Positions 7,610 to 30,100 of a stretch of 34,646 nt of DNA are shown here, one piece after another; position 1 is the stretch's first letter, and each line of letters opens with the position of its first letter. Source of the DNA: a virus; IMG/VR virus record IMGVR_UViG_3300030117_002112, positions 2,768-37,413 of that record; one strand, given 5' to 3'. A model generated the notes under the pieces. That model saw only the letters and a list, made by a program, of their open reading frames with translations. It was not told where the DNA came from and searched no databases. The position numbers and the translations under genes were made by a program.

Positions 7610-7620
7610 TATATTATATT
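7610..7620 (+). promoter_or_regulatory. A/T-only translation leader, second copy
   Basis: Identical 11-base TATATTATATT directly before the ATG, matching the copy before the scaffold gene. The whole stretch between the terminator and this start is A/T only, so any promoter restarting transcription after the terminator is not recognisable by eye. Confidence 0.4.
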
Positions 7621-8442: not shown

Positions 8443-8448
8443 TCAAAC

Positions 8449-8487
8449 TGTAGATGCAGTCGCTCTACGGGGCGATTGCAAACTACA
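8449..8487 (+). ncRNA. Strong intergenic RNA hairpin without a T tract
   Basis: TGTAG (8449-8453) pairs with CTACA (8483-8487). After a small internal loop (A against AA), TGCAGTCGC (8455-8463) pairs with GCGATTGCA (8472-8480) with one G-U, leaving an 8-base loop TCTACGGG. The segment is GC-rich compared with its surroundings and ends 11 bases before the next start. No poly-T follows, so it is not a simple terminator. It may be an mRNA stabilising or processing structure, a protein-binding operator, or a fold controlling the downstream small gene. Class unknown. Confidence 0.65.
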
Positions 8488-8498
8488 AATTATATTAT

Positions 8499-8666
8499 AT
8501 GGAAAATAAAAACAAATCAAAAGGTTTAGGTGATACTGTGGCAAAAATCACGAAGGCAACTGGTATAAAAAAAGTTGTAGATACGGTTAGCAAAGCAACT
8601 GGCAAAGATTGTGGTTGTGGCAAAAGACAGGATACTTTAAATAGATTATTTCCTTATAATAATTAA
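8499..8666 (+). CDS. Small Cys-containing conserved-looking protein (55 aa)
   Basis: 55 residues starting MENKNKSKGLGD. I place the start at 8499 rather than at the in-frame ATG at 8454. The latter lies inside the hairpin stem and lacks the A/T leader, whereas 8499 is preceded by AAATTATATTAT. The protein has a lysine-rich helical part with two similar units (KITKATGIKKVVD and TVSKATGKD), then a CGCGKRQDTLNRLFPY motif with two Cys in a C-G-C arrangement. No transmembrane helix is present. Function unknown. Its retention between capsid and connector genes suggests a virion or assembly role; metal or disulphide use of the Cys pair is speculation. Confidence 0.75.
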   Translation: MENKNKSKGLGDTVAKITKATGIKKVVDTVSKATGKDCGCGKRQDTLNRLFPYNN

Positions 8667-8675
8667 AAAGAAATT

Positions 8676-9434: not shown

Positions 9435-9437
9435 AAT

Positions 9438-11069
9438 ATGGCATGGGATAATCAAAATCAGTTAATAACAGTACACGAGGACAATTATTATAATCGGAAG
9501 AAGAAAGATGGAACCGGTAGTTACGCCAGAGAATTTGAGCCTGGCAATTATCAATTTGTAACATTACAAACTGTTATGGATCAGTTTATGATATCTTATG
9601 TTGGTAAAGACAAAATTATACCAACTGTAAATAAACTTGATGTACAGTTTCATGCCATGAGAGGTTTACAAGAATTTTCTTATGACACACTAAAATCATA
9701 TAAAGGTTTTGAATTTACATTACCACCTAAATTAAGCGTAATATTACCTCAAGATTTTGTTGCTTATACACAAGTTAGTTGGAGCGATTCAAACGGTATA
9801 AAACATCCAATACATTATACTAACGACACTTCTAACCCAAGAAATCCTTACCAAACCGAAAACGATAGTCTACATGGTCAAGATAATCCATTTTCGCTAC
9901 ATGCTATAGGCACATTTACGGCTGGTAGTTCAGTTGTTGAATTAGATGGTTTATATCCAGAATTATTTACTTCTGTACAAGGTGTAGGTGGTGTAACAAT
10001 CAAGTTTATAAACCCAGGTATGTTTGATGGTGTTACAGTATCTGGTGGTTTTAAAGGAGCGCATGTATACGCAGTTTGGCATGATAAAACTACTCAAAAA
10101 ACTAGTATACAAATTAATAGTCCCAATGATGGTCATAATGTAAATAGCGTTCAAATTGTACCAAGTGTATCTGGAGACATGCATCTAGAATTTCACTATC
10201 AAAATCCTATTTCTATCCCATATGATCCTGCTAAAGCTAATTCATATAATTTAATACCTGGTGTTAAACTACCAATATTATATAATCCAGTATTTAGTGC
10301 TACTCATAATAAAATTACAGCCGCAAGTCCTGCTGATGTAGCTGATATTAGAGTTGGTATGAAAGTATGTTGTAGTAACGAATATTTTAATAATCAAAAT
10401 TGTCTTGTTCTTGATGTTGATTATGAAAATGGATTTATATGGGTTCATGGTCCTCAACAAACAGCCAGTCATAACAGTCCTTTACCAGCGGGAACACCAT
10501 TAATAGCAAGCACGGTGGCACCTACTGGGACAACCTTTACATCTGTACCATCGCTTTGTTTTGTAGATGAAGATATATTAGCGAAAAACGCTCAAAGAAG
10601 AAATCATGGTCCCCATATGTATGAAGAATCTGATACTTTAATTTCTTTTAAAGGTTCTAATGAGTATGACGAAGCTACTGACGATGAAATTAGAGCACTT
10701 GGAGGAGCGAAGTATGGATTAGATCCTCAAAGAGCTAATGCAAATGGAACTTTTTATATTGATCAAGATAAAGGAACTATGCGATTTAGTTCTGATTTAG
10801 TAGGTAAAACTATTATTATAGATTATATAAGCGATTCCTTAGGTCAAGTAAGAGAACAAGTGGTTCATAAATTCGCAGAAGAAGCTATGTATAAATGGAT
10901 AGCATATGCTGTTTTAGCAACACGTTCTAATACTCCAGAATATTTAGTAGCGAGATTTAAAAAAGAAAGATTTGCGGAGATGAGAAAAGCTAAATTAAGA
11001 TTACAAAATATAAACTTTAAAGAATTTACTCAAATTTTAAGAGGTAAATCAAAACTAATAAAACACTAG
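9438..11069 (+). CDS. Probable tail tube / nozzle structural protein
   Basis: 543 residues, mostly beta structure, with a helical C-terminus (EQVVHKFAEEAMYKWIAYAVLATRSN, then a basic amphipathic stretch KKERFAEMRKAKLRLQN). That C-terminal pattern resembles adaptor or nozzle proteins that wrap the tail entrance. A 'VGMKV...VLDVDYENGFIWV' beta module lies at about residues 292-345, and a second beta sandwich (VVELDGLYPELF...VQGVGGVTIKF) at 165-200. It sits between the adaptor candidate and the giant tail gene, with gaps of 3 bases on both sides, so it is tightly co-translated. The stop is TAG. No enzymatic motif is seen. Confidence 0.55.
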   Translation: MAWDNQNQLITVHEDNYYNRKKKDGTGSYAREFEPGNYQFVTLQTVMDQFMISYVGKDKIIPTVNKLDVQFHAMRGLQEFSYDTLKSYKGFEFTLPPKLSVILPQDFVAYTQVSWSDSNGIKHPIHYTNDTSNPRNPYQTENDSLHGQDNPFSLHAIGTFTAGSSVVELDGLYPELFTSVQGVGGVTIKFINPGMFDGVTVSGGFKGAHVYAVWHDKTTQKTSIQINSPNDGHNVNSVQIVPSVSGDMHLEFHYQNPISIPYDPAKANSYNLIPGVKLPILYNPVFSATHNKITAASPADVADIRVGMKVCCSNEYFNNQNCLVLDVDYENGFIWVHGPQQTASHNSPLPAGTPLIASTVAPTGTTFTSVPSLCFVDEDILAKNAQRRNHGPHMYEESDTLISFKGSNEYDEATDDEIRALGGAKYGLDPQRANANGTFYIDQDKGTMRFSSDLVGKTIIIDYISDSLGQVREQVVHKFAEEAMYKWIAYAVLATRSNTPEYLVARFKKERFAEMRKAKLRLQNINFKEFTQILRGKSKLIKH

Positions 11070-11072
11070 TAT

Positions 11073-14000
11073 ATGCCAGAGATGAAGCGTAATTTTACCA
11101 AAGGTAAAATGAACAAAGATCTTGACGAAAGACTTGTTCCTAATGGTGAATATAGAGATGCGATGAATGTACAGGTAACTACCTCAGAAGGATCTGACGT
11201 AGGTACTATTCAAAACGTATTAGGTAATACGCCTGGTTGTGATGTTAATATCGCGGGCGCGGGCTCTTATACCGTAGGATCTGTTTCTGACGAAAAAAAT
11301 GATACTTTATATTGGTTGGTCTCTGGTCCAACTGGAGCCACGGAGGAAACTGAATTAGTTAATGTCGATATGTCTGACATGATACTTCGTAGAAAACCAG
11401 ATCCAATTAATGGTGGTTATACTTGTGAAGCTGTTTTTGTTGATAATTACGCTTTTTCACTTGTAAATAATATGGTATGGGATGGAAGTTCTGATTCCGT
11501 AGATTTTTATTCTGCTGGATTACTCTCACAAATTACAACAGATTGGACTATTACAGGTGTTAATAATGACGGTAGTACATCTTCCATAGAAAATATAAGT
11601 GATATAAGCACTGGAGATAGCTTTGTTTTTGATTGGAGTTTTATAGCATCAGCAAATCCAGTATACGATGATTTTTGTGTTGGGCCCAGTCAACAATGTA
11701 ATGGTGTTGAAGTTTTATTCCCTGTAGAACAGGATGATTGTTTTAATTGTCCGCCAAACCCAAATACTTGGAGTAATAACCTTGGACTTTGGGCTGCTCC
11801 TATTGTATTTTTACGTGGATATGCTGGACCATCTTTACTTAACAACTACATAGATCTTGATCCATATGGTGGTGGTGTTAATATATCAGGAGCGCCACAT
11901 GTTTCTCCTACACCAGGTTGGCAAATCACGGCAGAAACCACTGTTAATGTTAATTATAGTGATAATACGGGTGAAACTTTATTACAATTAACTTTAGACG
12001 CTCCTATTACTTTCGGCGCATTATTCCAACCTGGTGTTAATTGGACACCAACACCAACTGTTTGGACTATCCCGCAAAATTGGTATTTAGCACCTATTGG
12101 GTTTACGATTGGTGCACAAGCAATACCGGCTATTATAACATCAAATACACCAACGGTTAATTATCTTCCAGATAGTGGTTGGATAATATTACCACCTCAA
12201 TATGATGTAAATGATTATAATATAAACGACACTATAGTTTTAGATCAAAATTTATTTACAGAACAAGCAGGTTGTATAATTGGTATTGATGGTTCTAATA
12301 ATATGTTACAAGTTGATGATTGTAATGGAACATTTCTTGAACCTCAACTTATTATGCCTGGAATACCAAATCCATATATACAGCAAGGTATAATAGTTTT
12401 AGACGAATCAATATCTTTAATAGGTCCAGATCCTGCAATTCTTAATAACTATGACAATCTTTTCCTTCAAGGGCCTAGGGTTTTAAATTTTGATCATGGT
12501 GATTTAATTTTGGGTATAAATATAATTGATGAATTTTTAATTTGGACAGATAATAAAACAGAACCAAAGAAAATAAGTATACCTCGTAGTGCTGCTGGTA
12601 CAAATCCAAATGGTACCGTTCATACTAATGTTATAGTACCTGATGCTAGTGGAAGTATTACGCCTGGTATTAACAAAGGTCCAGCAAGAGAAGAACATAT
12701 AACAGTTATTAGAAAAGCACCACATAGACCACCAACGTTAAAAATAGGCACGGAATTAAGAGAAGGACCTATAGGATTAGGCTATAACGTAACGATGCTA
12801 GGGAATTGGTTTGATGCTGTTGGCGAGCAATTATACATTTCAATTAACGATGTTGACTCAGTACCGTGTGATTTTATTGTTGGAGATATGATAGGTTTAG
12901 GTATACCTGGTATGGGTGTGCTTCCTGGTGAGACATTTTTAGATGGATACCAAGTTACATTAAAAATATTAGAAATAAACGAAGGCCCATGGACTAGTTC
13001 AGATGGAACTTATAGTGTAGCAGCTGGGACAACAGCGTATTTAGTAGAGATTATAACTTTAGTTGATGACGCACCTTTTCAAGGAGATAATTGGGAGTTG
13101 GAATTAATAGATGATGAAAACTTTTTATTTGAACGTAAACTACCTAGATTTGCTTATAGATATAAATACGTCGACAATGAGTATTCTACATATGGACCTT
13201 TTTCTGATGTAGCATTTTATCCTGGAAGTTTCGAATACCAACCAGTAAAAGCATACAACGAGGGTATGACAAATAGAATTAGAACATTGTCAATACAGGA
13301 TTTTATTCCTAGTGATATACCAGAAGATGTTGTGCAAGTTGATATTTTATATAAAAACGAAAATTCTCCTATAGTTTATTTAATGGATAGTATAAGAGAG
13401 AACGACGCGGGGGGAATGAATAACGCTTGGAATTCTGTTGGTAGTAATGATCTTGCTGGATCAGCTAAAGGATCTTATAAAATAACAACAGAAAATATAT
13501 ACTCAGCATTACCAGCTAATCAAATGTTAAGAACTTGGGACAATGTACCCAAAATTGCTTTAGCACAAGATATTAGTGGTAATAGAATTATTTATGGTAA
13601 TTATAAACAAGGTTATACTATAGAAGAGTTCGCTAATGATACTAGTGGTAAATTAGTGCCAAATATTAATATTAATTTAGTAGCTAGACCAGCTTTAGAA
13701 GAAGATATTTATTTTGCGCGAAAATCTATAAAATCGCTTAGAGATTATGATTTAGGTGTTGTTTGGGGAGACAAATATGGTAGAGAAACACCAGTAATAA
13801 CACCTAGTAGTGGATCGTTTGCTGTTCCAAAAAGTCAAGCTGAAAAATCTAATTATATAAAAGCTAGTTTAGAAAAATCTCCTCATTGGGCAGAATATTA
13901 TAGATATTATATTAAAGAAACTTCTAATCAATATTATAATTTACCTGTAGATAGAATTTATGATGCAGAAGATGGTAATATTTGGGTTTCCTTTCCATCT

Positions 14001-17000
14001 GTTGATCGAAATAAGGTAGATGAAGATACTTATATTATATTAAAAAAGGGTTCTGATACAGATATTTTAATACAAGAAAAAGCTAGATACAAGATTGTTG
14101 CTATAGAAAACGAAGCCCCAGAGTTTATAAAAACAGAATACGAGCAGTTAGCTAGAACTAATACAGATTCCACAAGGTATAGTCACTCGTGTCAAATGTG
14201 GGGTGGTGGAGTTAACGCTGGTGCTCCAAATGGAAATACTGGTTGTACTATATATCCGTTAGCACAAGGAGTTATGAGTCCACCTGTTATCGGAAGAAAA
14301 TCTTTTAGTATACATCGTGACCATTGGAAAGGTGATTGGAATGATACAACCAAACAAATGGGTTTACCGGATTTGGTAAAAGTATTTGCTGATATTACCG
14401 CTGATAATACAACAGACGAATTTTATGTTAGTTTTACAAAAGAGACTGTAAATAACGACGGTAGTTTGACTGTTATAGCTGGTAGTAAATATAGAGTTTT
14501 AGAAATCATAGATCATGATAATGTACCCGTTGATCATAACGCATATGATTCGAATGGTGATGGTAGTAATGATGTGGCTGCTGGTACTCTTACAATTAAT
14601 GCATACGAAGTAAAACTAAGCGAACCAATAAAAACTAGTGATGAATTTATAGTAGATGCGTATGATTCCAATGGTCAATTACTAAATGACGATATACATA
14701 TTATTTTTTGGAAAAAGACTATAACAAATAAGCCTGAGTTTGATGGTAGGTTTTTTGTTAAAATATATTCTGATGGTACTGATAGAAAAAACTTATCATC
14801 AGAACCAGCTTTGATCAAAAACTGGTCAATAACAGGTACAACTCCTTTATATATGATATGGGACACAAATGATGGTGTTCAAAGTACAACAGGGTGGCTT
14901 AATGATTTGTCTTTAGATACATTTAATTTTAATACTACTGGTGTTCCTGGTGGTAGCACTTACACCAAAGCTGATTGGAATTCTCATTTAAAGTTTGGTG
15001 GAGTTAATGTAACTTCTAATTGGTTTGTTGACGCAGCGAGTTTTGCGAGTCAACAACCTAATAGTAACAATAACTATTCTAATATTACAAGAACTTTCCC
15101 AGGACCTTTAGGACTAAATATTGATAGTTCTGATACAACGACCTCTGTTTCCTATAATATGTATTGCCATTCTTGTGCATTTGGCATGGGACTTTCATTA
15201 CCGGGTGGTAGTTTTAATGGTACTGGAGAAAGTACTGGTCTTGTTGGTATGAAAGGGGCTTTTGTAGATAGTAATGCACGTAAAAAATTAGATATAGGAT
15301 TTTCAAAAATAGGACCTACTGGTAACACTGGATCTGGTGGGAGATACGAAGGTTATAGCGTTAATTGGCAAGTTGGTGATGCTTCTAATTCTTATCATGA
15401 TGAAGAAAAAGCCGTTGTAGAAGGATTACAAATTAATAGAAGATTTAGATTGCAAGGGAGTCCTGTTATATATAAAATATTAGGTGTAAATAAGTTTAGA
15501 CTTTTTAACTATCAAGGTGAAAAAACTGCCACTCCTGTTAAAACGTATATAGGCTTCCCTTATTATAAAACTTTTTGGAACACTGAGCATTTAGATCAAG
15601 TTCAACTAATGGCTGAACAAAGAAACCGTAGAATTACTTATAGAATATGGTACGATGTTGATCTTACAGCGACAGATCCAGCTGATTTGGTAAGTGGTTT
15701 AGCTGGTACAGTACCTGAGTCAACGGCAGATACTATTATGGATAATGCAGAGTGGAGTAATATATCAAACGTATTAGATGGTGGTACTGTAACTAGTGTT
15801 AATTTAGAGTTTTTAGAAGAATTTAATGTAGAGGGAGAGAATAAAATAAGTGCTAATCCAGCTATATTTGAAACAGAACCTAAAGAAGATGCTGATTTAG
15901 ATTTATATTATGAGGCGTCTTCAAGCTTCCCTACGCTTCCAATAACAAATACGAATAAACATATTTATATACCTGTAGGTTCTACAATTGAAATACCTGA
16001 TTCGTTTCAAACTTTAGCTTGGACAGGTACAGCTCTTACACCGGGAACGTTTGTTACTAGTTGGGAAACTGTAAATCCTTATATTGGTCCATTTCCACCT
16101 CAAATACTTACTGTTAATTTATCAAACTCTATATTAGTAACAGATATATCGTTACTTATTGGCTTATGGAATGATATTACATTTTTAAGAGACGACGGTA
16201 CTTATGTGTCAGCTAAATTCGTTGGCTTTGCTAATTATTATACAGAAACAGATCCTAATTCCCCCAATGTTGGTCAACTTGTAACTGCTTCTCTTCAATT
16301 TAATCCGAGCACTTCTGTAGGATTAAGTTGGCATAATTGCTGGTCTTTTGGTAATGGTGTTGAATCAAATAGAGTTGGTGATACATATAACAAACCGTTT
16401 CTTGGTAATGGAGTTTCCGTATCTAGTATTTTAGAAGATAATTTCAAAGAAGAACACAAGAAATATAGTTTAATATATTCTGGAATATACAATTCTAATA
16501 GTGGTGTTAATAGTTTAAATCAATTTATCGCTGGAGAAAAAATTACTAAAGATTTAAATCCTATATATGGTACTATACAAAGATTAAAAGCTGGTTGGGG
16601 TCAAGGTGGTGATTTAATAGCCTTGTGTGAAGATAGAATATTAAAAATATTAGCTAATAAAGACGCGTTATTTAATGCTGATGGTGATACCAATGTTACT
16701 GCTACTAATAGAGTTTTAGGCCAAGCTATTCCTTACTCAGGTGAGTATGGTATTTCAAAAAACCCAGAATCATTTGCATCAGAGGCGTATAGAGCATACT
16801 TTACAGATAAAGTTCGAGGAACTGTAATGAGATTATCTAGAGATGGTTTAACACCTATATCAGATGCTGGTATGAAGGATTGGTTTAGAGACAATCTAAA
16901 ATTAAATAATAAATTAATTGGAAGTTTTGATGATAAAAAAGATGAGTATAATATATCTTTAGAAAACACCACAGAAAATATTAGTAAATCTGTTAGTTTT

Positions 17001-19535
17001 AGAGAAGACGTAAAAGGATGGGTTAGTTTTAAATCATTTGTAACTAACAATGGTATTAGTTGTGCTAATGATTATTTTACATTTAAAGAAGGTGAACTTT
17101 GGTTACATCATCATGATGTCGCAGGTAATAGAAACACTTTTTATAATGTATTTACACCAACGAGTTTTGAAGTACTTTTAAATGATGCTCCGGATGTTGT
17201 AAAATCTTTTTATACATTAAACTATGAGGGTAGTGATTCAAAAGTAACCTTAAATTTATCAGATGATCAATACCATAATTTAACAGCAAAAAACGGTTGG
17301 TATGTTGACGCCATGTTTACAAACAAAGAAACTGGTGATATTTATGAGTTTATAGAGAAAGAAGGTAAATGGTTTAATTATATACGAGGTACAAATATAA
17401 GTTATAGCGCTACAGATGATAGTATAATAGTAAATCCTGACGGTAGTTCTACTTGGGATCAAGATAGTTTTGCAATACAAGGTTTAGGCGCTGTAGGTGG
17501 TGTTGGTTCACCATTAGCAGTATATGGATGTACTAATCCTTTAGCAACAAATTACGACGCTACGGCAAACACAGACGATGGTTCATGTGTATTTCCAGCA
17601 CCAATTAATGGTTGTACACATGCTACATCTGTCGACTATGATGCTACAGCAACTAGTGATGATGGTTCGTGCACATGGCCTGGTTGTACCGATCCAAGCG
17701 CGAGTAACTATACTATTGGTTATCTAGGAGGTCCTTGGCCACCAGAGGCCCAAACTTATATAGGTATTGGAATGATTGATGATGGTTCATGTGTTTATTG
17801 TAACTATGGATGTATGGACCCAACAGCGTTTAACTATGACGCGAGTGCAACTTGCGATGGTGGAAACTGTATAGCCTCTCAATATGGTTGTATGGGACAA
17901 GCTATTATTCCTTGTAATGAATGTTTAAATTTCGATAATAATGCAAATACAGATGATGGAAGCTGTCAGTGGGAGTTTTGCGGAGAACCTGCAGATAGTC
18001 AATATAATTCTATTGCAGATGCTGAAAGTACAGGTTATATAGTAGCTGGCGTTGGATACGTTAACAACACGGTAGGATGTCAAGATGGTGGATGTACGGA
18101 TCCAACTGCATTTAACTATAATCCAAATGCTTTGTGGAATGATGGTTCTTGTATCGCGGCAATTCCAGGTTGTACAGATCCAAGTGCATATAATTATAAT
18201 GATTACGATCAAGATGGGTTTAGTAATGCACCAACTAATGATCCGACGATTGACGTTAATACTGATGATGGTTCTTGTATATATGAAAATACGTGTTACA
18301 AATGTGGTAATCGATCGACTGATGGTGCACCAGGATATATCGAGGAAGAAATAGTCTTCGAAGCGGTACAAGGTTACTGCCCACCACCACTTCTTGATCA
18401 AACAGCTGCTGATGCAGCGTTTGGAATAAACTTTAATATAGATGATTGTTGTATTGCAGGTTGTACAGATCCACAAGCAATTAATTATGATCCAACAGCC
18501 ACATGTGATGATGGTTCTTGTACTGTTATACCACAACCAATATTTGGATGTCCAGCTGGTACAGGTGCTAGCAACGAGGATTGTGGAACCAATATTAGTC
18601 CTGGTGCTACATCTCCTTGTAATGATGGTGTAACTCAAGACGATGGATCATGTAACTATGACAACTACTGCGTGTATTGTGATTTAAACGGATATGTACA
18701 AGAGGTAAATTACTTAGGATTAAACGGGTTAAGCGTCGCGTCAGATCAACTATCAGGAGGGCAATGTAATCCAAACCCGAATGCGCAGCCTAGTCCCGGA
18801 TATGAGTATACAACTGATTCTACCAATCCAAACGGCTCAGCTTGGACGTTTGTGTGGAATGGTGCTTGGCAAGGTGTTACAGCTGGTAGTGGTTGTGTTT
18901 TAGGCTGTACTGATGCTAATGCTGCTAATTACGATCCGCTCGCAACTTGGGATAATGGTAATCAGTGTATAGCTGCAATACAAGGCTGTACAGATCCTGC
19001 TGCTTGGGATTATGACCCTAGTGCTAATAGTGATATTCCATGTAGTTTCTGTACTCAAGATCCAGAAGATCCAGCAAATTATTGTGTTGGTACAAATACT
19101 CTAGTTAACGGAGTTCCCGTTTGGAATCAAACCGATGCTAGTAATTATGAATATATAGCACCTAACTCACCTTCAGGTTGTAGTATTTATCACAATGGAG
19201 AATGGTGGCAATTTAATAGTAACCTTGGAACTGACGTTACTCTTGAACCTGGAGTAAATAGTGGTAGTTTTGATCAAGGATGGGTTCGTTGTAACTCTAT
19301 TGAAAATACTTGTACTGGTCCAGTAGTTAATGCCACTGGATTTGATGCGTGGTCCGCTGCTCACACTGCGGTTTATCAACCTGGTGATCTTGTTGAATAT
19401 CCTGGTGGATCTGGAAACTTCTATATTTTCAATGCAACAGTAAATAATGGTGGTATGTATTATCCTGATAATAGTGCTTTATGGGATGATGCTAATAGTC
19501 CTTGGTTGTACTGTGCTAGTTGTGATAACTGCTAA
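11073..19535 (+). CDS. Giant tail protein: DNA-stabilisation/nozzle-like body with Cys repeats and a possible sugar-binding tip
   Basis: 2820 residues. The N-terminus (KRNFTKGKMNKDLDERLVPN, then GEYRDAMNVQV) resembles the start of packaged-DNA-stabilisation/tail-tube proteins (P22 gp10, T7 gp12 and crAss-like nozzle relatives). The body to about residue 2120 is beta rich, with a propeller-like stretch near 1840-1960 (GGDLIALCEDRILKILANKDALF; AYFTDKVRGTVMRLSRDGLTPI). Residues 2152-2657 hold about 11-12 cysteine repeats of consensus GCTDPxAxNYxxxAxxDDGSC. Residues 2757-2820 resemble a type 5/12 carbohydrate-binding module (W2760, then Y/GD/V/Y spacing). The frame is intact for 8.4 kb. Likely role: the central tail nozzle, ending in a receptor-binding tip on the cell surface. 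The body assignment is fairly good; the tip function is inferred. Confidence 0.7.
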   Translation: MPEMKRNFTKGKMNKDLDERLVPNGEYRDAMNVQVTTSEGSDVGTIQNVLGNTPGCDVNIAGAGSYTVGSVSDEKNDTLYWLVSGPTGATEETELVNVDMSDMILRRKPDPINGGYTCEAVFVDNYAFSLVNNMVWDGSSDSVDFYSAGLLSQITTDWTITGVNNDGSTSSIENISDISTGDSFVFDWSFIASANPVYDDFCVGPSQQCNGVEVLFPVEQDDCFNCPPNPNTWSNNLGLWAAPIVFLRGYAGPSLLNNYIDLDPYGGGVNISGAPHVSPTPGWQITAETTVNVNYSDNTGETLLQLTLDAPITFGALFQPGVNWTPTPTVWTIPQNWYLAPIGFTIGAQAIPAIITSNTPTVNYLPDSGWIILPPQYDVNDYNINDTIVLDQNLFTEQAGCIIGIDGSNNMLQVDDCNGTFLEPQLIMPGIPNPYIQQGIIVLDESISLIGPDPAILNNYDNLFLQGPRVLNFDHGDLILGINIIDEFLIWTDNKTEPKKISIPRSAAGTNPNGTVHTNVIVPDASGSITPGINKGPAREEHITVIRKAPHRPPTLKIGTELREGPIGLGYNVTMLGNWFDAVGEQLYISINDVDSVPCDFIVGDMIGLGIPGMGVLPGETFLDGYQVTLKILEINEGPWTSSDGTYSVAAGTTAYLVEIITLVDDAPFQGDNWELELIDDENFLFERKLPRFAYRYKYVDNEYSTYGPFSDVAFYPGSFEYQPVKAYNEGMTNRIRTLSIQDFIPSDIPEDVVQVDILYKNENSPIVYLMDSIRENDAGGMNNAWNSVGSNDLAGSAKGSYKITTENIYSALPANQMLRTWDNVPKIALAQDISGNRIIYGNYKQGYTIEEFANDTSGKLVPNININLVARPALEEDIYFARKSIKSLRDYDLGVVWGDKYGRETPVITPSSGSFAVPKSQAEKSNYIKASLEKSPHWAEYYRYYIKETSNQYYNLPVDRIYDAEDGNIWVSFPSVDRNKVDEDTYIILKKGSDTDILIQEKARYKIVAIENEAPEFIKTEYEQLARTNTDSTRYSHSCQMWGGGVNAGAPNGNTGCTIYPLAQGVMSPPVIGRKSFSIHRDHWKGDWNDTTKQMGLPDLVKVFADITADNTTDEFYVSFTKETVNNDGSLTVIAGSKYRVLEIIDHDNVPVDHNAYDSNGDGSNDVAAGTLTINAYEVKLSEPIKTSDEFIVDAYDSNGQLLNDDIHIIFWKKTITNKPEFDGRFFVKIYSDGTDRKNLSSEPALIKNWSITGTTPLYMIWDTNDGVQSTTGWLNDLSLDTFNFNTTGVPGGSTYTKADWNSHLKFGGVNVTSNWFVDAASFASQQPNSNNNYSNITRTFPGPLGLNIDSSDTTTSVSYNMYCHSCAFGMGLSLPGGSFNGTGESTGLVGMKGAFVDSNARKKLDIGFSKIGPTGNTGSGGRYEGYSVNWQVGDASNSYHDEEKAVVEGLQINRRFRLQGSPVIYKILGVNKFRLFNYQGEKTATPVKTYIGFPYYKTFWNTEHLDQVQLMAEQRNRRITYRIWYDVDLTATDPADLVSGLAGTVPESTADTIMDNAEWSNISNVLDGGTVTSVNLEFLEEFNVEGENKISANPAIFETEPKEDADLDLYYEASSSFPTLPITNTNKHIYIPVGSTIEIPDSFQTLAWTGTALTPGTFVTSWETVNPYIGPFPPQILTVNLSNSILVTDISLLIGLWNDITFLRDDGTYVSAKFVGFANYYTETDPNSPNVGQLVTASLQFNPSTSVGLSWHNCWSFGNGVESNRVGDTYNKPFLGNGVSVSSILEDNFKEEHKKYSLIYSGIYNSNSGVNSLNQFIAGEKITKDLNPIYGTIQRLKAGWGQGGDLIALCEDRILKILANKDALFNADGDTNVTATNRVLGQAIPYSGEYGISKNPESFASEAYRAYFTDKVRGTVMRLSRDGLTPISDAGMKDWFRDNLKLNNKLIGSFDDKKDEYNISLENTTENISKSVSFREDVKGWVSFKSFVTNNGISCANDYFTFKEGELWLHHHDVAGNRNTFYNVFTPTSFEVLLNDAPDVVKSFYTLNYEGSDSKVTLNLSDDQYHNLTAKNGWYVDAMFTNKETGDIYEFIEKEGKWFNYIRGTNISYSATDDSIIVNPDGSSTWDQDSFAIQGLGAVGGVGSPLAVYGCTNPLATNYDATANTDDGSCVFPAPINGCTHATSVDYDATATSDDGSCTWPGCTDPSASNYTIGYLGGPWPPEAQTYIGIGMIDDGSCVYCNYGCMDPTAFNYDASATCDGGNCIASQYGCMGQAIIPCNECLNFDNNANTDDGSCQWEFCGEPADSQYNSIADAESTGYIVAGVGYVNNTVGCQDGGCTDPTAFNYNPNALWNDGSCIAAIPGCTDPSAYNYNDYDQDGFSNAPTNDPTIDVNTDDGSCIYENTCYKCGNRSTDGAPGYIEEEIVFEAVQGYCPPPLLDQTAADAAFGINFNIDDCCIAGCTDPQAINYDPTATCDDGSCTVIPQPIFGCPAGTGASNEDCGTNISPGATSPCNDGVTQDDGSCNYDNYCVYCDLNGYVQEVNYLGLNGLSVASDQLSGGQCNPNPNAQPSPGYEYTTDSTNPNGSAWTFVWNGAWQGVTAGSGCVLGCTDANAANYDPLATWDNGNQCIAAIQGCTDPAAWDYDPSANSDIPCSFCTQDPEDPANYCVGTNTLVNGVPVWNQTDASNYEYIAPNSPSGCSIYHNGEWWQFNSNLGTDVTLEPGVNSGSFDQGWVRCNSIENTCTGPVVNATGFDAWSAAHTAVYQPGDLVEYPGGSGNFYIFNATVNNGGMYYPDNSALWDDANSPWLYCASCDNC
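17526..19043 (+). repeat. Array of GCTDP...DDGSC cysteine repeats in the giant tail protein
   Basis: About 11-12 diverged units start at residues 2152, 2180, 2204, 2246, 2272, 2340, 2366, 2463, 2492, 2611 and 2638. The standard unit is 21 residues, G-C-[TM]-x-P-x-A-x-[ND]-Y ... D-D-G-S-C, and several are expanded to 27-37 residues by loop insertions. Each unit has one Cys at the front and one at the end, suggesting a disulphide or calcium-stabilised small fold (D-D-G-S). Longer Cys-rich linkers separate some units, for example 2299-2339 and 2403-2462. Such repeats are familiar from secreted proteins of marine Flavobacteriia. Confidence 0.85.
19341..19532 (+). other. Possible CBM5/12-type chitin/carbohydrate-binding module at the protein tip
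   Basis: Residues 2757-2820 read FDAWSAAHTAVYQPGDLVEY, then FYIFNATVNNGG, then a P...W.......W pattern. This matches the W-x(n)-Y-x-x-GD-x-V-x-Y ... aromatic ... P ... W layout of chitin-binding type-3 modules, where exposed aromatics stack on sugar rings. Extra Cys at the very end (CASCDNC) may cap it. Similarity is judged by eye only. Confidence 0.5.
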
Positions 19536-19561: not shown

Positions 19562-19951
19562 ATGCCTCTTATAAACTTAACTTTTGATAGTATGAATATC
19601 TCCGCGCAAGTTGGTGATATACTCCATTATTCTCATAGTGGGCTTAATGTTGGTGGTTTTGATAGCACCGCCTTAGGTAATACCGTAGTTATAGGGCCAA
19701 TAGTAAATATAATAGACAATACTTTAAGTGGTGGTGTTGGGTGGACAGTAACAGTTAACCATATTAATGGAGATCCTCCTTTAAGTTTACCACCTCCAGC
19801 AGCCGGTGATTATATATCTTTTTCTAAAGATAAAACAGTTAATACTTCTAGCTTAGTAGGTTATTATGCTAACGTTAAATTTGTTAATGATTCAAATAAT
19901 AAAGTAGAGTTATTCTCGGTTGGATCAGAAATTTCAGAAAGTAGTAAATAA
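19562..19951 (+). CDS. Small beta-rich structural candidate (129 aa)
   Basis: 129 residues, family not recognised. The start MPLINLTFDSMNISAQVGD is followed by a beta module (VGDILHYSHSG ... VVIGPIVNIIDNTLSGGVGWTVTV). The C-terminal half reads as a conserved block (YISFSKDKTVNTSSLVGYYA, then NVKFVNDSN, and ends SVGSEISESSK). There is no signal peptide or membrane segment. It follows the giant tail gene by 26 bases of A/T-only leader and precedes the 601-residue gene by 8 bases. It is probably a small tail or capsid accessory protein. The real-gene call is firm; the function is not. Confidence 0.75.
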   Translation: MPLINLTFDSMNISAQVGDILHYSHSGLNVGGFDSTALGNTVVIGPIVNIIDNTLSGGVGWTVTVNHINGDPPLSLPPPAAGDYISFSKDKTVNTSSLVGYYANVKFVNDSNNKVELFSVGSEISESSK

Positions 19952-19959: not shown

Positions 19960-21765
19960 ATGAATACAATAGGTGCTTTTAATATAGATTTGACAGATTT
20001 ACCAGTAAGTTCTGAAACTAGAAACTTTACTATTCTAGGAAGTGTTGGTGCAATTTTTACTTTAGAAATTAAAAACGAAGATAGTTATTATTACAATTTC
20101 ATTACACAAACTTTTCAAGCTGGTAAAGCTGGTTTATATGATATAGTTATAACAAGTGGTATTTATAGAAACTCTATTAAATTCCCAACTGTTGAAGATG
20201 ATGATCATTATGATATTTATTTATTCGCCGGTCAAGACACTGAACATGGTCCATATAGTGAGGTTAGATTTGGAGATGATACAATAGATATAAATTCTTC
20301 TACTGGATCTAATTCAAAGTTAATGAGAAAAATTATATATCAATATACAAATTTAACTTTAACTTTATCTACATATGCAGCAACCGCTGCTTTTTCAATT
20401 ACTAGTGCAGTTAATGATACTTTTACGGTATCTCGTGGTAGAGGTCTAGCAAAAGTTCCGTTTACTATATCTTGTTCTTCTAGTAGCGGTGCTTGCTTTA
20501 GAATTTTAAAACAACCTACATCTAATGATATTCTATCGTTTATGGAACCAACGGTAGGAGCAGCTCCAGAATTATTACCAGGTGAAAATGAATACCCAAC
20601 AGCTAGAGCTGCTTTTACTGGAGATGATGTTAATGGCGCTGTAACTAGTGGGAGCGTAGTTAGAATGGATAATACTGATTTATCTGCTGTTATAGAAGTT
20701 GGAGATAAAATAACATCACCTGTTACAACAGATACTGTAGATGGCGCTGTTTCTAGTTCTAATAGAATTGTAATGGATAATAATGTTGCCACAAAGATGG
20801 CAGTTGGAGATCAAGTTACAGGTACCGGTATTTCAGATGGATCAGTAGTAACTGTTACTCATTTAAATCCAGATAGTGATAACGTTAAAGAACTTCAAGT
20901 ATCAGAAGCTGTTAGTATAAGTGACGGTGTTACTTTGACTTTTAGTTCTCAAGTAAATAGAAGTTTAACTACTGTTACAGTTGTAGAAACTAGTGGCACA
21001 GCCACTGACTTTACAATGTCACAAGCTATTCAATTTCGCGATAATCAGCCTTTAACTTTTACACCGCAAATGAATTACCAATGGCCACTAGATAGTATTA
21101 AAAATATTAAAGAAGACATGATAGTAGTACCAGGTACAAATGTTACTGCAAATACATCTGTAGGTAAATACGAGGATACTGTAACTTTATTTGCAGATAC
21201 TGCTGATGAAAAAGTAATAGTAAAAAATAGTGCGCCAGCTTTAAATACAAAAGCTCAAAAACCAACAATAGTAAAAGGTTTAGTAACAGTACAACCTGGA
21301 AATGTGGTTTTTGATAAACAACAGAAATTAGCTTTGGCAGGTGACGCTATGAAAATAGGTGGATATGGTACGGATCACATTTTAGATATACATGGATATG
21401 AAATTAAGTTTACTGATTTAGCTATAGAATTAACGGATGTAACAACTACTACTACAGCTGCTTCAACAAATAGTACAAGTGTGGTTGTAGCAGCTAGAGA
21501 CGGAATATTAAATTCAGTTAGTACTGTTAGCGGTATAGGTATAGATCCCTCGGTGGTAGCACCAACCGTAAATAGTGGTGCCAGTACTACGGGTGCTGGA
21601 ACAATAGTGTTGAGTGCGGCTCAAACTTTAGAAAATGGTATAACATTAACTTTTGATGGTGCTGGTAAAACAGCTACTATAACTGGTTTTGTAGAAGTTT
21701 TAAAAGCGGGTACTGCTGACGCAACGTTAAGGTTTGATGTGGAAAAGCTTCTAACATCAACATAA
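19960..21765 (+). CDS. Beta-rich structural protein with repeated modules
   Basis: 601 residues. The N-terminal 140 residues form a separate beta domain (FTILGSVGAIFTLEIKNEDSYYYN; FQAGKAGLYDIVITSGIYRN). From about 221 on there are repeated surface-protein-like modules with V-[ND]-G-A-V ... MDN ... V-G-D-x-[IV], at 224 and 260 (36 residues apart). The second continues into GTGISDGSVVTVTHL and SISDGVTLTF. A related module sits at about 503-567 (STSVVVAARDG ... IVLSAAQTLENGITLTF). Such modules are typical of extended fibres or decorations. Placement after the tail genes suggests a tail appendage or head fibre. No enzymatic motif. Confidence 0.55.
   Translation: MNTIGAFNIDLTDLPVSSETRNFTILGSVGAIFTLEIKNEDSYYYNFITQTFQAGKAGLYDIVITSGIYRNSIKFPTVEDDDHYDIYLFAGQDTEHGPYSEVRFGDDTIDINSSTGSNSKLMRKIIYQYTNLTLTLSTYAATAAFSITSAVNDTFTVSRGRGLAKVPFTISCSSSSGACFRILKQPTSNDILSFMEPTVGAAPELLPGENEYPTARAAFTGDDVNGAVTSGSVVRMDNTDLSAVIEVGDKITSPVTTDTVDGAVSSSNRIVMDNNVATKMAVGDQVTGTGISDGSVVTVTHLNPDSDNVKELQVSEAVSISDGVTLTFSSQVNRSLTTVTVVETSGTATDFTMSQAIQFRDNQPLTFTPQMNYQWPLDSIKNIKEDMIVVPGTNVTANTSVGKYEDTVTLFADTADEKVIVKNSAPALNTKAQKPTIVKGLVTVQPGNVVFDKQQKLALAGDAMKIGGYGTDHILDIHGYEIKFTDLAIELTDVTTTTTAASTNSTSVVVAARDGILNSVSTVSGIGIDPSVVAPTVNSGASTTGAGTIVLSAAQTLENGITLTFDGAGKTATITGFVEVLKAGTADATLRFDVEKLLTST
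20626..20949 (+). repeat. Tandem diverged beta modules within the 601-aa protein
   Basis: Two aligned units begin 108 bases apart. GTTAATGGCGCTGTAACTAG at 20629 and GTAGATGGCGCTGTTTCTAG at 20737 differ at only a few positions, and both lead to an ATGGATAAT (MDN) and a GTTGGAGAT (VGD). The identity at DNA level points to a relatively recent duplication, with the second unit extended by an extra strand region. Confidence 0.65.
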
Positions 21766-21819: not shown

Positions 21820-22290
21820 ATGTCTAAAAATAAAGTTGTTAAAAATTCAAGAAAAAAAATATTATCATTAGAAAAATCTTTAATAGATATAGCTGACGGA
21901 ATAAATATAGAAGGTGATGGTAAACATATAATTACTGAGAGTAAAATAGCTCCAGTAAAGCATACTTTTGCTGATAGTATTTACGTTAGACAAATGGATA
22001 TAAAAAAAGGTGGTGTTGTGGTTGGAGCAATACATAAACACTTACATGTTTGGTTTTTACTAACCGGACATATTTCTGTAGCTACGGAAAATACAACAGA
22101 AGATTATATAGCTCCTTGTTATGTGGTTTCAACACCGGGAGTTAAAAGAGTTATACTAGCAAATGAAGATTCTATATTTGTAAATATACATAAAAATCCT
22201 TCTAATACCCAAGATATAGATCAATTAGAAAAAGAAATAGTAGCTTTAAATTACGAAGAATATGAAGAATATATTAATAAAAATAAATAG
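21820..22290 (+). CDS. Cupin-fold protein
   Basis: 156 residues. The central part has a cupin/RmlC-type beta-barrel signature: GAIHKHLHVWFLLTGHISV, with metal-ligand-like H72, H74 and H76, followed by a gly-containing strand turn. A second motif area is around PCYVVSTPGVKRVI, and a late histidine (VNIHKNP) is at about 127. The N-terminus is basic; the C-terminus is acidic and helical (EKEIVALNYEEYEEYI). Cupins bind sugars or small metabolites and may be metal enzymes, so virion sugar binding or host metabolite modification are both possible. The gene lies between a fibre-like gene and the ejection-protein genes, with a 3-base gap to the next start, so co-expression with virion proteins is likely. 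Confidence 0.7.
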   Translation: MSKNKVVKNSRKKILSLEKSLIDIADGINIEGDGKHIITESKIAPVKHTFADSIYVRQMDIKKGGVVVGAIHKHLHVWFLLTGHISVATENTTEDYIAPCYVVSTPGVKRVILANEDSIFVNIHKNPSNTQDIDQLEKEIVALNYEEYEEYINKNK

Positions 22291-24126: not shown

Positions 24127-27100
24127 ATGAGCGAAGTATTTGTAGATAATAAATATCAAGGTGGTTTTGTTGGAGATTTAGAAACTTTAACAAGTCAATT
24201 TCAACGTGGAGATATAAATAATCCATTAGACGAATATGACGTTGAAGCCTTAATTTCTTCTCAAAAAAATATTGATTTAATTATAGATAATAAAATACCA
24301 TTAACTGATGAAGCTAAATTTGAGTTAAACAAAGTATTAAAATATCATGACGAAGATTATGTAAATAAATTTAGATCAACTTATTTTACACCGCAAGAAG
24401 TCGATTCACTTTCACAATCACAATCTCGTTCAGAAACTATCACTACTGATGTAAAAGAATCTAAAAGACCAAAAACTCACGAACGATTATGGAAAGCGCT
24501 AGTAGATAAAGAGCTTTATAGTGGTGATTATAATAAATTTCAAGAACAATTTTCTACACCAGAAACACAACAAAGATTATTCAAGTCTCTTAAAGCGAAA
24601 AAACTATACAGCAAATCTGCTGGTGATTTCATGAATACATTTTTTCCAGTTATTGAAGAACAAAAAGTAGAAACAGTAGTAGAAGATACTCCAGAAACAA
24701 AGGTTCAAAACATACAGAAAGATGATAAGTCTTCAGTAATCGAACGTTCTTACATGCAAGAAGACGAAAGTTATGATGATTTTTATAATAGAATAACGCC
24801 TACTACTAGAGAAGTAGAAGAAGAAGTTTATGATGCTAGTTATAGAGGTTTTGTAAAAAAACCAGTTACCAAAACAGTTATAGATGGAATAGCAAAAATA
24901 AAAGACGGCGTTTATGTAAATGAAAATAACGAACCAGCTACCGAAGAAGAAATACTTAGATATACTGAATTAGAGCAGTTAAACAATATTCGTCAAGAAT
25001 CTTTTGCTATAACATCTAGATCGGCGGGTGATTATAGTGATTTGTCTGCTAGCGAAATTGTAGAAGCTGGTAAAAAAGAAAAACTAGAAGATGTTGATGT
25101 AACTCAAGTTGGTGAAATAAAACCAGAATTAGACTATGAACTTAAAGATTATTTAGAATATAATCAAGAACAATTGATAAATAATTGGGAAAATTTTTTA
25201 GTTAAAACCAACGCGCCAATAATAGCAAGACAAGAAAAAGAACAACAAGAAATATGGGATTCAAAGTGGGAAGCATTTTTACAAGAAAATGAATCTACTA
25301 TAAATGGAGAAGTAAAAGCTTTAGAGCAAGAAGTTTTATCATTTTGGGAACCTCAATTTAAAAAAGCTAAAACCCAATCAGAACTTGACAATCTAATTAG
25401 TGAGGCAGAGGAAGATCTTAAAACAAGTATAAATCTTCAAATAAACGATCGTTATAAAGACATGTTTAACCAGTTGATGCTAGAGGACGAAGAATTAAAT
25501 GTTATAGGAGCTAGACATCAAGAGGAATGGAAAGTAATACAAGAAAAACAATGGGATCAATATGCTAAAAATATTAAACCAAAATATGATATTTTTACAC
25601 CTAAAGTTTTAGATGAAATAGGCGAAAACTTAGATCAAAATTATAATTTTCAATATAAACCTGGTCCAGAGCAAAAAATGTTATTACAAAGAGCTCTTGA
25701 TGGATATATTAGAGAATTTGGTATTCCAGAAGGAAAAGAATTGGAAGATGTTAAAAATGAATATTGGTCGTATTTTTATAAAAAATTAGCGTTTGATCCA
25801 TCGTCTACTAATGAAGATGGTACACCAACTTATTCTCAATGGGCTTATAAAGATATAGCAACAGGGGCATTAGAAGAAGCTAAGAAAGAATTAACAAGAT
25901 TATCCAAAGACTACGAACCAATAAAAGTTCGAGTTTCCGCTAGAGAATACAGAACAATAACACCAGAACAACAAGCTAGAAATAATAACCCTGAGTTAGG
26001 TCAAATAATAGATTTTTCCCAAAGAGTTCTTGATAATCCAGAAGAAATGAGTAAAAATGGTTTTACTAATTTTTGGAAAGGATTAACATCATTACAAGGT
26101 CATGAGTATATACCCGTGGTAGGTGGTTTAGTTGAGCTTAATAACTCGGCTCATTTTTACGAATTATCTCAAAAAAAGGATAGAACTAAAATGGAAGACT
26201 TGGCTCTTTCAATATATGCTATTAAAAACGCGTCAGATAAAAAAGTTTCAGAACTAGGTAGCACGGCTTACAATGGTGGTAAAATAGCTGGTGGATCTGT
26301 ATCCTTTATGGGTGAGGTTATACTTACTAGTGGATTGTATACTAGCGTTAGGAAAAGCATGTCTAAAGTTATAAAATCTTCTTTAGATAAAGCTATAAAA
26401 AGATCTACAGGTAAACAAGCTGCTAAAGGTGGTTTAAGATTTCAAAAAGGAACAAGTAAAATGTTGTTCGTACCTAAAAATACTACATATAAGATGGTTG
26501 ATAGCGTGGGAGATGTTACGGGATTTTTATTTGCTACAGCTGCTCAAACTAGTGTTAATCCACAAAGGTATTTAAAGGGTATGTATGATAACATGACACC
26601 AGAGATTGCCTTTGCTTATACAGATCAAGTAGATGATCTTATAACTGATTTAGAATTAAACGCGTTAGTTGGCAGTGAAGACAATCCAGATTTAAAAGAT
26701 GGAGACGATGTGTTAAAAGCTTTTGCCAAGGCTTTTGGTACTACATGGGCCGAGTACGCAACGGAACGTATGGGAGAATTACTACCTGGTATGGCTAAAG
26801 GTATGGCTAAAAAAATTGGACTAACATCTCCAGATTTTCTCAAGAGAATGAGTATAGGTCTTGTTATGCGTAAAATGGGGTTAAGTACGGTAGGAGAAGC
26901 TAGTGATTGGTTAAAAAGAACAGCTGGTTACCATGGCGTTTTTGGTGAATTAACAGAGGAATTTATTAACATGCCAATATCTAACATCATTAACGGTGAA
27001 ACTTGGCACGAAGGATTTGACCAGCAAAGTATAAAAGAAATGACAGTTGGTATAGCTCCAACAGTATTCGCCATGAGTGGTGGTAATGTTTTGTACAATA

Positions 27101-30100
27101 CAATGACTAATAAATCTAACCCATCTTATTGGGTTGATTACCAAAGACACGAAACAAAAGAATCTGCATTAAAACATTTAAATAGACTAAAATCAGAAGG
27201 TAGATTAAATAAAGATACAGATATAGAAATCAGAAATGATTACGTAGCCTTTGATGAGGTTTCAACTTTTTTAGAAGGTGAAGGACTAGATAATGAAATA
27301 ATTAAAACTAGTGGACCGGGTATATCCGAAGGAAGTATAGTTGCTACTGAAACTGAAATGCTTGACGAAATGGACGATCCTAACCAAAGAAAAGAAGTGG
27401 AAGGTAGATCTGATCAAATAAAGGAAAAGCAAGACGCTATAGAGGCCTTAGAAGAGTTCATGAGAACAAAAAGAAGATCTACAGATAAAGAAAAAGAAGA
27501 CGTCAATATTAAAATTAAAAAATTACAAGACGAAATATCTGATTTAAAAGCTGCAAATGAAGTTATATTAAGTCCTATTAGAGATTCAATTATTAAAAAG
27601 AAAAAAACCGAAGCATATCAAAAAGGTTTAGATAATTTAAGAAATATATATTCTAAAGGAAATAAAGGTAAAAATAAAGATGGTTCTGAAATTTTACAAG
27701 AAGCAACTTCAGATGAAGAGGTTAGAAGTATAATAACAGCAGATATATTAAGTCGAGATGGTCTAGAAGTAAACGACAACGGTGATATAGTTTTTATAGA
27801 CAACGGTCAAAAAGTAAATTTAGATGATGCTAGTTTAAGATATATTGATAAACAAGTAGAAGCCGCTTTAACTTCACATGGTGGTTTCACTATGGACGCG
27901 GAGACTGGTAAAAAATTAATTGTAATTAATAAAAACAAAGCAATAGAAGGAGCTGGTTCAAACGTAGCTATGCATGAGTTTTTACATCACTTTCTAGTTG
28001 AAACGCTTAATAAACATCCAGAATTAAAACTAGCCGTTGGAGAAGCTTTAAGTAAACACTTGGTTAATATAGATCCTAAACAAATAAGAGATACTGATTT
28101 TAGAAAAAGAGTAATGACGTATCAACAAGACTTTGGGTATACAACATCAATGGAAGAAACATTAAATCTTCTATCTGATGCTATAGCTAATGGTACTTAT
28201 CAATATAATGAGTCAGCAATGACTAAACTTGGTGATATTATAAGGCGTGTAGCTAGTAGTTTTGGAGTAAGAGTAGAGTGGAAAGACGGGAGAGATGTAT
28301 TTAATTTCATACGAGATTACAATAAAGCATTTGAATCTGGGAAATTATCAAAAGGTTTTCTAGAAACAATGGAACAAGGTGTAGTAATAGGTGGTAAAAT
28401 AAAAACTGAAGCACAAGCCTTAAAGGACAAGCTTAAAGAAATTAGAAAAATACCTGGGTTTGAAGAAGTTAAACTAGAAGATGCTGCTGATGCTCAAATG
28501 TTATTTTCCAAAGACACTGAAAATCCTCTTGTAGGTAACGAAACTTTTCAAGAAAAAATACAAACATTATACGAGCAAGGAGATTTAGATGCAATACAAG
28601 AAGCTTATAAACCTAGAATAAAAAGAGTTCTTAGAGCAGAATGGGGTTGGACAGAAGAAATATCTGATAAGTTTGAAGGTATAGTTGAAGAAGCTGTTGG
28701 TCCAGATAGAGGTGTTTTACAATTAATTCTCGGTCCTGGAAAAACAAAATATGATCCAACTTTAGGTGTTCCTTTATCTGGGCATATAGGATCTGTACTT
28801 CAAAAAAGAGGTTTAAGTGAGTTTGTGAAAAGAGAATATCCAGAAGGTGTTATAGAACAACGTATGGGTAAAGAATCTGTAGCAAAAGAAGTCGCTAAGA
28901 TAGAAACTAAACCGCAGGATGTTATATTAACAGATAAAGTTTTAGATAAATATATAACGCCTTTATTGTCTGATTTAAAGTTTACTAAAGATCAAATTAA
29001 AGTTTTAAGAGCAGAAGTTTTAAAAATTGTTGGTACTAAACTAAAAGCCTTAGACGCTGCTGTATCCAAAAATCAATCTATTAGTCCTATGATTGCTGAT
29101 ATGAAAAAGCAACTATATGTTAAAAACGGGCCAATACACAATGTAGTTTATGATATTATGACCGCTGACATGGCGGATATGATAAGTGAAAATCTTAAAG
29201 CTATAAATCCAAAAACTAAAAAGTTATACACAAAAAAAGAGGCTGAACATAAAGCTTTTAAAGATTCAGTAGAAAAGTTTTTCAAAACACCTAAATACAA
29301 AAAAGCAATTTTAGATTCTTTAACTACCACATGGTTGGCTAAATGGTTACCAATGGGTGTTCAGAAAAAGATAGTTGGTATGGGTTGGGTTAATCATGAC
29401 GTTTGGGAAGGGAGAAAAAAGGGTACTAAACGAGGTGATGTTGAAGCTTGGCAAGCTAGCGAAGAAGGTCCTTATAAGGGTATGACTGATGGAAAGCAGA
29501 AGATAAGAAGAAATCCTAAGGCTACAACTGATGTAACGCCAGCAATGCTATTAAGTGCTTTTGTTAAAGGTAAAACGCCTACAGAAATAAAAAGAAAAGG
29601 ATTAGAAAACATATCTTTAACTATAACTCAAGAACTAGGTTTAGAAGTATTCAAGGCTGACATGGTTAATGATGGTAAACTAAAGGAAGTATTTAAAAAC
29701 AGACAAGATCTTTTTGATAGAATATTAAACGATAATTTTGTTGAAGAATTTGTTAGGCAATTTGAAAGAGGTACAACAAAATATAGCGCAGATGCCGCTA
29801 AAGAAATAACTTTAAAAACCGTTGAAGAGGCTAACCGTAGATTAAAAGAACAAATAACCGCTGGTTATGATGGTGCTGTCGAAATAATGGGTATGAAACC
29901 TATAAGCCTTAAAACAGAAGAAGGTAGAGAAGAGTATAGACTTTTCTTTTTAGAAAAAATAGTACCGATGCTTTCTAAAAGGGTTTTGTTAGCAATGTCT
30001 GGCAGTTTTACTGCTTCCGCTAGTACTTTAGCAAAAAATTGGAAAAGAAGATTTTTATTTAAGAATAAAACAGAGTTTACATACTTTTTAGATCAAGTAG

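Follow-up and report, generated by a model that had tools for sequence, protein, structure and literature searches.

The locus described here raises the question of why a phage should end its tail nozzle protein in an array of cysteine repeats of a type that also abounds in secreted proteins of marine flavobacteria, and what became of the domain whose place the array has taken. The DNA is a 34,646-nucleotide stretch of a virus (IMG/VR record IMGVR_UViG_3300030117_002112, positions 2,768 to 37,413; hereafter the window). The tail nozzle of crass-like phages is the muzzle, and the muzzle gene of the window ends in about 11 units of the type GCTDP...DDGSC; these occupy the position of the conserved muzzle C-terminal domain (CTD), which is encoded just downstream as an open reading frame (ORF) of its own. 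Because the array is always accompanied by a separate CTD gene in relatives of this phage, we think it probable that it is a variable arm for gripping host cells, that is, a host-type, disulphide-bridged and fast-changing adhesion arm on the nozzle protein, with the CTD made separately. The features concerned are as follows (aa, amino acids).

11073..19535, plus strand: muzzle protein of a crass-like phage with a C-terminal cysteine-repeat array, 2820 aa (Pfam, phrog and tblastn)
17124..17390 (aa 2018-2106), plus strand: crAss_MUZ_C domain (PF25729)
17478..17489, plus strand: QGLG motif immediately 5' of the array, which it accompanies on free-standing ORFs (loci L012 and L052)
17526..19043, plus strand: cysteine-repeat array, about 11 GCTDP-x-NY-x-A-x-DDGSC units with inserted loops (motif and unit-profile counts)
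17526..17678, plus strand: array units 1 and 2, the di-unit used for the fold model and the profile match to MPEG1
19110..19532, plus strand: divergent C-terminal tip, 140 aa, without a relative in Pfam, solved structures or IMG/VR
19562..19951, plus strand: severed muzzle CTD, a 129-aa ORF (CTD profile, E-value 9e-31; phrog_18548)

A cysteine-repeat array on a muzzle protein

The muzzle C-terminal domain PF25729 lies directly N-terminal of the array and scores above the Pfam cutoff (28.5 versus 27 bits), and phrog_14478 matches aa 1745-2108 with an E-value of 3.7e-118. The order of genes is that of TerL (phrog_6681), portal (phrog_6547) and structural proteins (phrogs 13704, 14543 and 13977), followed by the muzzle ORF. 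A tblastn search with the whole muzzle returned 87 phage records; with one exception, their names refer to Flavobacterium, Cellulophaga, Tenacibaculum or Maribacter. The homologue in phi40:1 is a virion protein by tandem mass spectrometry, according to a record note that concerns that relative only. On sequence grounds, ORF 11073-19535 is the muzzle of a marine crass-like phage of Flavobacteriales, and the description of it as a phage tail protein in an earlier, sequence-only reading of this DNA was right. In phiCrAss001, the muzzle is described as a hexameric nozzle with a suspected role in gating ejection and in contact with the cell surface (PMC10172136). The start of the window ORF looks cytosolic by eye, with no export signal, and the ORF has no NCBIfam match such as Por_Secre_tail.

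The array begins at aa 2152 (nucleotide 17526), and its units take the form GCTDP-x-A-x-NY(D/N)-xx-A-xx-DDGSC. Counted by motif, the array has 11 matches of the type D(D/N)GSC and 10 GC[TM]xx starts, and the unit profile finds seven near-complete units and four with inserted loops or decayed halves, or about 11 in total. Cysteine-to-cysteine spans range from about 20 to 36 residues. Residue shuffling of the same tail (2000 rounds) produced 0.006 strict units on average and never more than one, whereas the real tail has nine; likewise, the unit profile reported a domain above 8 bits in only 1 of 1000 shuffled tails (top score, 10.2 bits), whereas the top real units score 38-43 bits. These counts bear out the 11 to 12 GCTDP...DDGSC repeats proposed by the sequence-only reading at 17526-19043, with boundaries accurate to a few residues, and its loop lengths of 21 to 37 residues fit the spans observed. 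That reading also placed the array just before the tip of the protein, which holds only for the polypeptide, where the divergent 140-aa end follows. The GC content of the array exceeds that of the remaining muzzle (41% versus 34%), a rise that comes mostly from the amino acids used, since third-position GC is only 21% versus 17%.

The ORF has no EGF or TSP_3 Pfam match up to an E-value of 10. For the tip, no Pfam family was found up to an E-value of 10, no relative in IMG/VR and no solved relative better than an E-value of 0.35; a suspected resemblance to chitin-binding-like (CBM5/12) domains was dropped on these results. The open-access literature searched yielded no description of a GCTDP/DDGSC repeat, and only unrelated papers surfaced.

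The muzzle gene is split where the array is present

In relatives without an array, the muzzle continues past the QGxG motif into a conserved domain ending in ...GYYA...ELF.V.SE..ESSK. Six relatives in culture were examined (Calle_1, elemoC, Panino, Gundel_1, phi13:2 and phi40:1), and each has this CTD in one ORF with the muzzle (E-values from 4.5e-16 to 1.2e-5); the fused form is therefore likely the older state. In the window, the two parts are tied together by phrog_18548 (length 241), of which positions 2-88 correspond to muzzle aa 1971-2057 and positions 191-238 to the 129-aa ORF.

A census of 81 loci, comprising the window and the best 80 of 383 relatives, retained near-duplicates (L020/L021, L040/L084, L048/L049, L014/L015 and L055/L056), so its counts refer to loci rather than independent events, and they are mutually dependent because of shared descent. 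Units lie on the muzzle, with the CTD separate, in 48 of the 81 loci, and on separate ORFs, with the CTD again separate, in two; the CTD is fused and units are lacking in 11, all of them IMG/VR relatives; seven have a separate CTD and no units; no CTD was found in two, one of which (L075) has units on a neighbouring ORF; and 11 are truncated, nine of them with units. The CTD thus stands apart in all 50 unit-bearing loci in which both are visible, and every fused locus is devoid of units. In both loci with free-standing arrays, L012 (two tandem ORFs) and L052 (one ORF), the muzzle stops upstream of the QGLG motif and the array ORFs start with a peptide of the F-D-x-A-D-x-S-F-Q-G-L-G type, which indicates that the motif travels with the array. 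In L012, the two array ORFs (7170-12309) separate the muzzle gene from that of the CTD; the first encodes an Lcl_C domain, and the pair may possibly be alternative adhesins.

Trees were built without L021, L049 and L084, and for the CTD also without L043. On the CTD tree, the fused and split states are related by one change (95% support in the Shimodaira-Hasegawa-like approximate likelihood-ratio test), or two after trimming, against 10.3 when shuffled, and on the muzzle tree five changes are needed. Such a difference could point to swapping of 3' modules between muzzle backbones; we do not claim it, because a muzzle tree constrained to group all fused loci together is not rejected by the approximately unbiased test (p 0.59, this tree being even 7.9 log units better) and one fission followed by vertical descent is enough. 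The distribution of fused and split genes in these sequences would accordingly fit a single gene fission.

Several further rearrangements were observed around the muzzle. A break further upstream in the gene is present in phi13:2 and Panino; in phi13:2 (L090, 3304-8874) the muzzle is broken before MUZ_C and the upstream half ends, by eye, in a cadherin-like domain, which may be a counterpart of the split seen in the window. A 601-aa ORF without a family match follows the CTD in the window (19960-21765), and its homologue lies between muzzle and CTD in L053, L058, L077-L079 and L082, so the position of the CTD gene is variable. Two loci without an array, L076 and L085, share an extra insert (VTGIEHADGS...) in the conserved muzzle, within the 6001-8250 region.

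Arrays and tips diverge faster than the muzzle

Sequence divergence in the arrays and tips far outpaces that of the muzzle. In the pair L028/L029, MUZ_C is 93% identical, against 48% for the tail, and the tips are unrelated; between the window and L006 the values are 83% for MUZ_C, 61% for the CTD and 39% for the tail; and L055 and L056 retain 98% identity in MUZ_C and 87% in the tail. Among 49 tails and array ORFs, adhesion-type domains were found as fn3 in 10 and Lcl_C in three, neither of them in the window, and no tail matched BACON, EGF, TSP_3 or SprB (Pfam, E-value 0.05). Two resemblances noted by eye are not claimed: SprB-like inserts in L006 and L055, SprB being unmatched in all 49 tails, and a Lcl/FISUMP-like tip in L028, for which no Pfam family was found at 1e-3. 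A reverse transcriptase (RVT_1) of the kind used by diversity-generating retroelements was found in none of 25 records, all fragments.

This pattern bears on the view that the array does no more than space or stabilise the nozzle, being kept for the resistance of disulphide-rich modules to proteases and shear, while separate tail fibres touch the host. A short tail-fibre gene is indeed present downstream (21820-22290, phrog_12032), and the units are conserved, simple and found in long arrays in bacterial proteins as well. We nevertheless consider a purely passive role unlikely, given that turnover is so much higher in the tails than in the muzzle and that their tips are unrelated, more in the manner of receptor-binding parts, and that some tails contain fn3 or Lcl_C domains.

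Occurrence of the unit in bacteria and other phages

Among 84,980 species genomes, the pattern scan gave 35 stretches, of which 18 were confirmed; every confirmed one has a title that names Flavobacteriales or other Bacteroidota. Most of the complete proteins among them start, by eye, with a signal peptide or lipobox; L093 and L095 have a type IX secretion system (T9SS) tail and L102 a FISUMP domain, and no T9SS match was found in L096. Searched for at an E-value of 1e-8, the array was present throughout the family of the reference genome G001 (12 of 12 genomes), in 63 of 196 genomes at the level of the order, in 27 of 295 at the class and in 3 of 198 at the phylum, with G001 itself included at each rank, and 61 of the 63 genomes at the order level are 2.0 Mb or smaller. 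The repeat is thus abundant in secreted proteins of marine Flavobacteriales, as the sequence-only reading had stated for marine Flavobacteriia. Short predicted lipoproteins with a GCxDP unit right after the lipobox (L103-L108) are near-identical across several single-amplified genomes (SAGs) and metagenome-assembled genomes (MAGs) of marine Bacteroidota. A possible physical link to a host is offered by an 8.5-kb contig that carries a muzzle, three units and the beginning of a CTD ORF of its own, and that was binned with the repeat-rich genome G295, one of the 12 family genomes; we treat this binning as weak host evidence.

The number of units in likely hosts, with up to 154 matches in the single genome G001 and arrays in every family genome, would also suit host mimicry, whereby the phage wears a surface module of its host to blend with or bind homologous host arrays, unit to unit, rather than another ligand. 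We hold this to be very unlikely, because binding between units is an assumption of that explanation and Kyanoviridae phages likewise carry two or three units. The latter emerged from a search of 50,697 phage records with the array (P0001), which returned only five matches: four records of S-CAM3 and a virus from a SAG, all Kyanoviridae; in their structural proteins (L110:3569-5119 and L111:3586-5139) the units are followed by repeats of immunoglobulin-like appearance. Plasmids gave no array match.

Within IMG/VR, the best 80 of 143 loci matched by the array were examined, and only three of them have a muzzle. Six of those without a muzzle were read individually: five are of the secreted type with a signal-like start, including L116 and L163 with a confirmed T9SS tail, and L189, an ORF on a 231-kb viral contig, has no signal and a phage-like appearance. 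Several of the contigs classed as viral (among L174 and L112-L191) encode secreted T9SS-type bacterial proteins with the repeat, and the contig of L174 and the bacterial MAG contig of L093 are both 43,296 long. IMG/VR probably holds bacterial fragments among its repeat-bearing contigs, and we did not use the non-muzzle loci as phage evidence because most of them are probably such fragments.

Origin of the phage units

The relationships among units were assessed by nearest neighbours for 574 units, leaving out 12 near-duplicate loci, domains below 14 bits and rows with more than three gaps. Of these, 14.8% have their nearest neighbour within their own array, against 3.3% after shuffling, and 66.6% have it within their own group (phage or host), against 49.6%, which indicates some local duplication and some separation of phage from host units. 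The units of the window are 71-86% identical to their best host unit over 21 residues, and units of other phages are about equally close, so the window gives no sign of a recent transfer. Transfer of the unit from host to phage is plausible. The suggestion of the sequence-only reading that the repeats may have been taken from a host is, as stated, not supported; its scheme of one transfer followed by duplication holds only in part, as there is some duplication within arrays but most units have their nearest neighbour elsewhere. The outcome which that reading took as counting against it, a repeat widespread in unrelated phages and absent from the host group, did not arise: the repeat is present in the host group and matched by only five of the 50,697 phage records.

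A further explanation is that phages, bacteria and animals have in common an ancient, mobile module for use outside the cell, and that the phage array is phage-derived or vertically inherited and uninformative about the host. The presence of the unit in cyanophage structural proteins, in the signal-less L189 and, as a single copy, in animal MPEG1 accords with this, as does the greater closeness of phage units to one another than in shuffled data (0.666 versus 0.496). Against it stands the strong concentration of the unit, among bacterial genomes, in the order of the hosts of the relatives, and we judge this explanation to be on the doubtful side, if the most serious of the alternatives. The presence of the repeat in cyanophages and, as one unit, in animal perforin-2, together with the split of the muzzle and its old CTD as the next ORF, goes beyond what the sequence-only reading had noticed.

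Predicted fold of the unit and of the CTD

In a joint alignment of phage and host di-units (57 rows), both cysteines of each unit and its G, N and Y are invariant or nearly so, and the units of the window fit the form GC-T/M-D-P...NY...A...DDGSC. We infer a disulphide within each unit. AlphaFold2 modelled the di-unit with a predicted local distance difference test (pLDDT) of 94.2 and a predicted template-modelling score of 0.52, almost without regular secondary structure, and the unit is predicted to be an ordered, cystine-type module, which agrees with the disulphide part of the disulphide- or calcium-stabilised stalk imagined at first. The di-unit profile matches one unit in macrophage-expressed gene 1 protein (perforin-2, MPEG1; E-value 2.7e-5), and Foldseek with the di-unit model returned only two matches, both MPEG-1, over 24 columns with a root-mean-square deviation of 0.7-0.8 and weak E-values of 2.6-4.2 (the query is short). 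A truncated EGF-like domain is described as connecting the MACPF and P2 domains of MPEG1 (PMC6989145), and the matched stretch would, judging from its position, be this linker.

The unsplit muzzle C-terminus was also modelled (19 rows). Its CTD part (residues about 379-460) reached a pLDDT of 64-89 and is predicted to be a beta-barrel, the first strand of which begins at the QGxG motif (residues 379-389) in what is a weak model. Comparison of this part with solved folds by VIA-align gave Z scores of 6.2 or less, below the informative level of the tool, and the CTD profile found no solved relative.

A proposed adhesion arm on the nozzle

Sequence and comparison show that the muzzle chain leaves the path of the CTD just past the QGxG motif, enters about 11 two-cysteine modules with inserted loops and ends in the divergent tip, the old CTD being encoded by the next ORF. 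In the mechanism that we propose, the modules would form a semi-rigid, cystine-bridged arm outside the virion, in six copies round the nozzle, one per muzzle subunit; modules of this type are also used by the likely hosts on their own secreted proteins. The small separate CTD protein would still pack on the muzzle, and the QGxG strand might complete it, as the start of the modelled barrel at that motif suggests. The changeable loops and the tip would meet the host envelope, aiding adsorption and nozzle opening. What we infer here are the position of the arm on the virion, its ligand and its disulphide state.

Several points weigh against an adhesion arm. The array is dispensable, being absent from eleven loci, and it is no prerequisite of the split, since seven loci have a separate CTD and no units; the sole physical link to a host is the one binned contig with G295; the tip of the window has no match to any known binding domain in Pfam, solved structures or IMG/VR; and the unsplit C-terminus as a whole was modelled poorly (pLDDT 44). 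By analogy with phiCrAss001, in which a distal 'crass fold' is described as inserted mid-chain in the muzzle (PMC10172136), the end of the muzzle chain may be located at the ring side instead of the distal tip of the nozzle. In addition, phage proteins fold in the reducing cytoplasm, and disulphides in the array would therefore need to form late. Late oxidation has a precedent, since the tails of phiCrAss001 are reported to contain disulphides (PMC10172136).

A more specific extension of the adhesion arm, which we put forward tentatively and would not yet favour, is a display slot: one fission left a muzzle that stops after the QGxG strand and can carry any adhesin array, with the beta-barrel supplied in trans and completed by that strand. 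Were it true, marine crass-like phages would fit, swap and even duplicate (as in L012) host-type cysteine-knot adhesins on the nozzle, the adhesins would sit on the very part that opens for DNA ejection, and the link between array and split CTD would be explained. Phages of marine Flavobacteriales are abundant. If the adhesion arm itself is confirmed, a modular, fast-changing extracellular arm fused to the nozzle and marked by a gene split would be common among the loci examined (48 of the 81) and would bear on host recognition by crass-like phages; the array tips would provide a sequence handle for host-range prediction, and the system would offer a clear test of how adhesion could open a crassvirus nozzle.

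Elsewhere in the window, an ORF of 3254 aa (24127-33891) has a sub-threshold match to DUF5763 at its C-terminus, and we would guess that it encodes a cargo protein packaged in the virion.

Comparison with known systems

Among phages, the Kyanoviridae structural proteins (S-CAM3 gp232 and AG-345-P14) resemble the window in that a structural protein bears the same unit, in two or three copies, but they belong to an unrelated phage family and protein, have short arrays and, for S-CAM3, concern a Synechococcus host. The EGF-like linker of perforin-2/MPEG1 (6u2j and others) is alike in sequence (E-value 2.7e-5) and in local fold (root-mean-square deviation 0.7, Foldseek E-value 2.6), whereas it is a single unit serving as a hinge in an animal pore-forming protein, with no array. 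The secreted GCTDP proteins of Flavobacteriales (L092-L109) share the unit, with at most 86% identity over 21 residues, and have similarly long arrays; they possess signal peptides, T9SS tails or lipoboxes, whereas the phage muzzle has none of these and is part of a virion protein. The muzzle of phiCrAss001 (gp44) belongs to the same family by its C-terminal Pfam domain, but its variation in length is described as arising from insertions into the crass and IG2 domains (PMC10172136), in contrast to the C-terminal addition and separate CTD of the window. The closest precedent is provided by the BACON arrays of gut crAssphage tails. Tandem BACON repeats are described on tail proteins of gut crAssphage and other phages, with a proposed role in host binding (de Jonge 2019, PMC6949934), and in that account they share with the window array host-type tandem repeats on a tail-region protein of crass-like phages, a variable repeat number, a poorly conserved C-terminus and a proposed function in host binding. 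BACON is, however, an unrelated, immunoglobulin-like module, as opposed to a two-cysteine knot, and the BACON proteins are placed near tail proteins (PMC6949934), whereas the array of the window is on the muzzle chain itself, with the end of the muzzle split off as a gene of its own.

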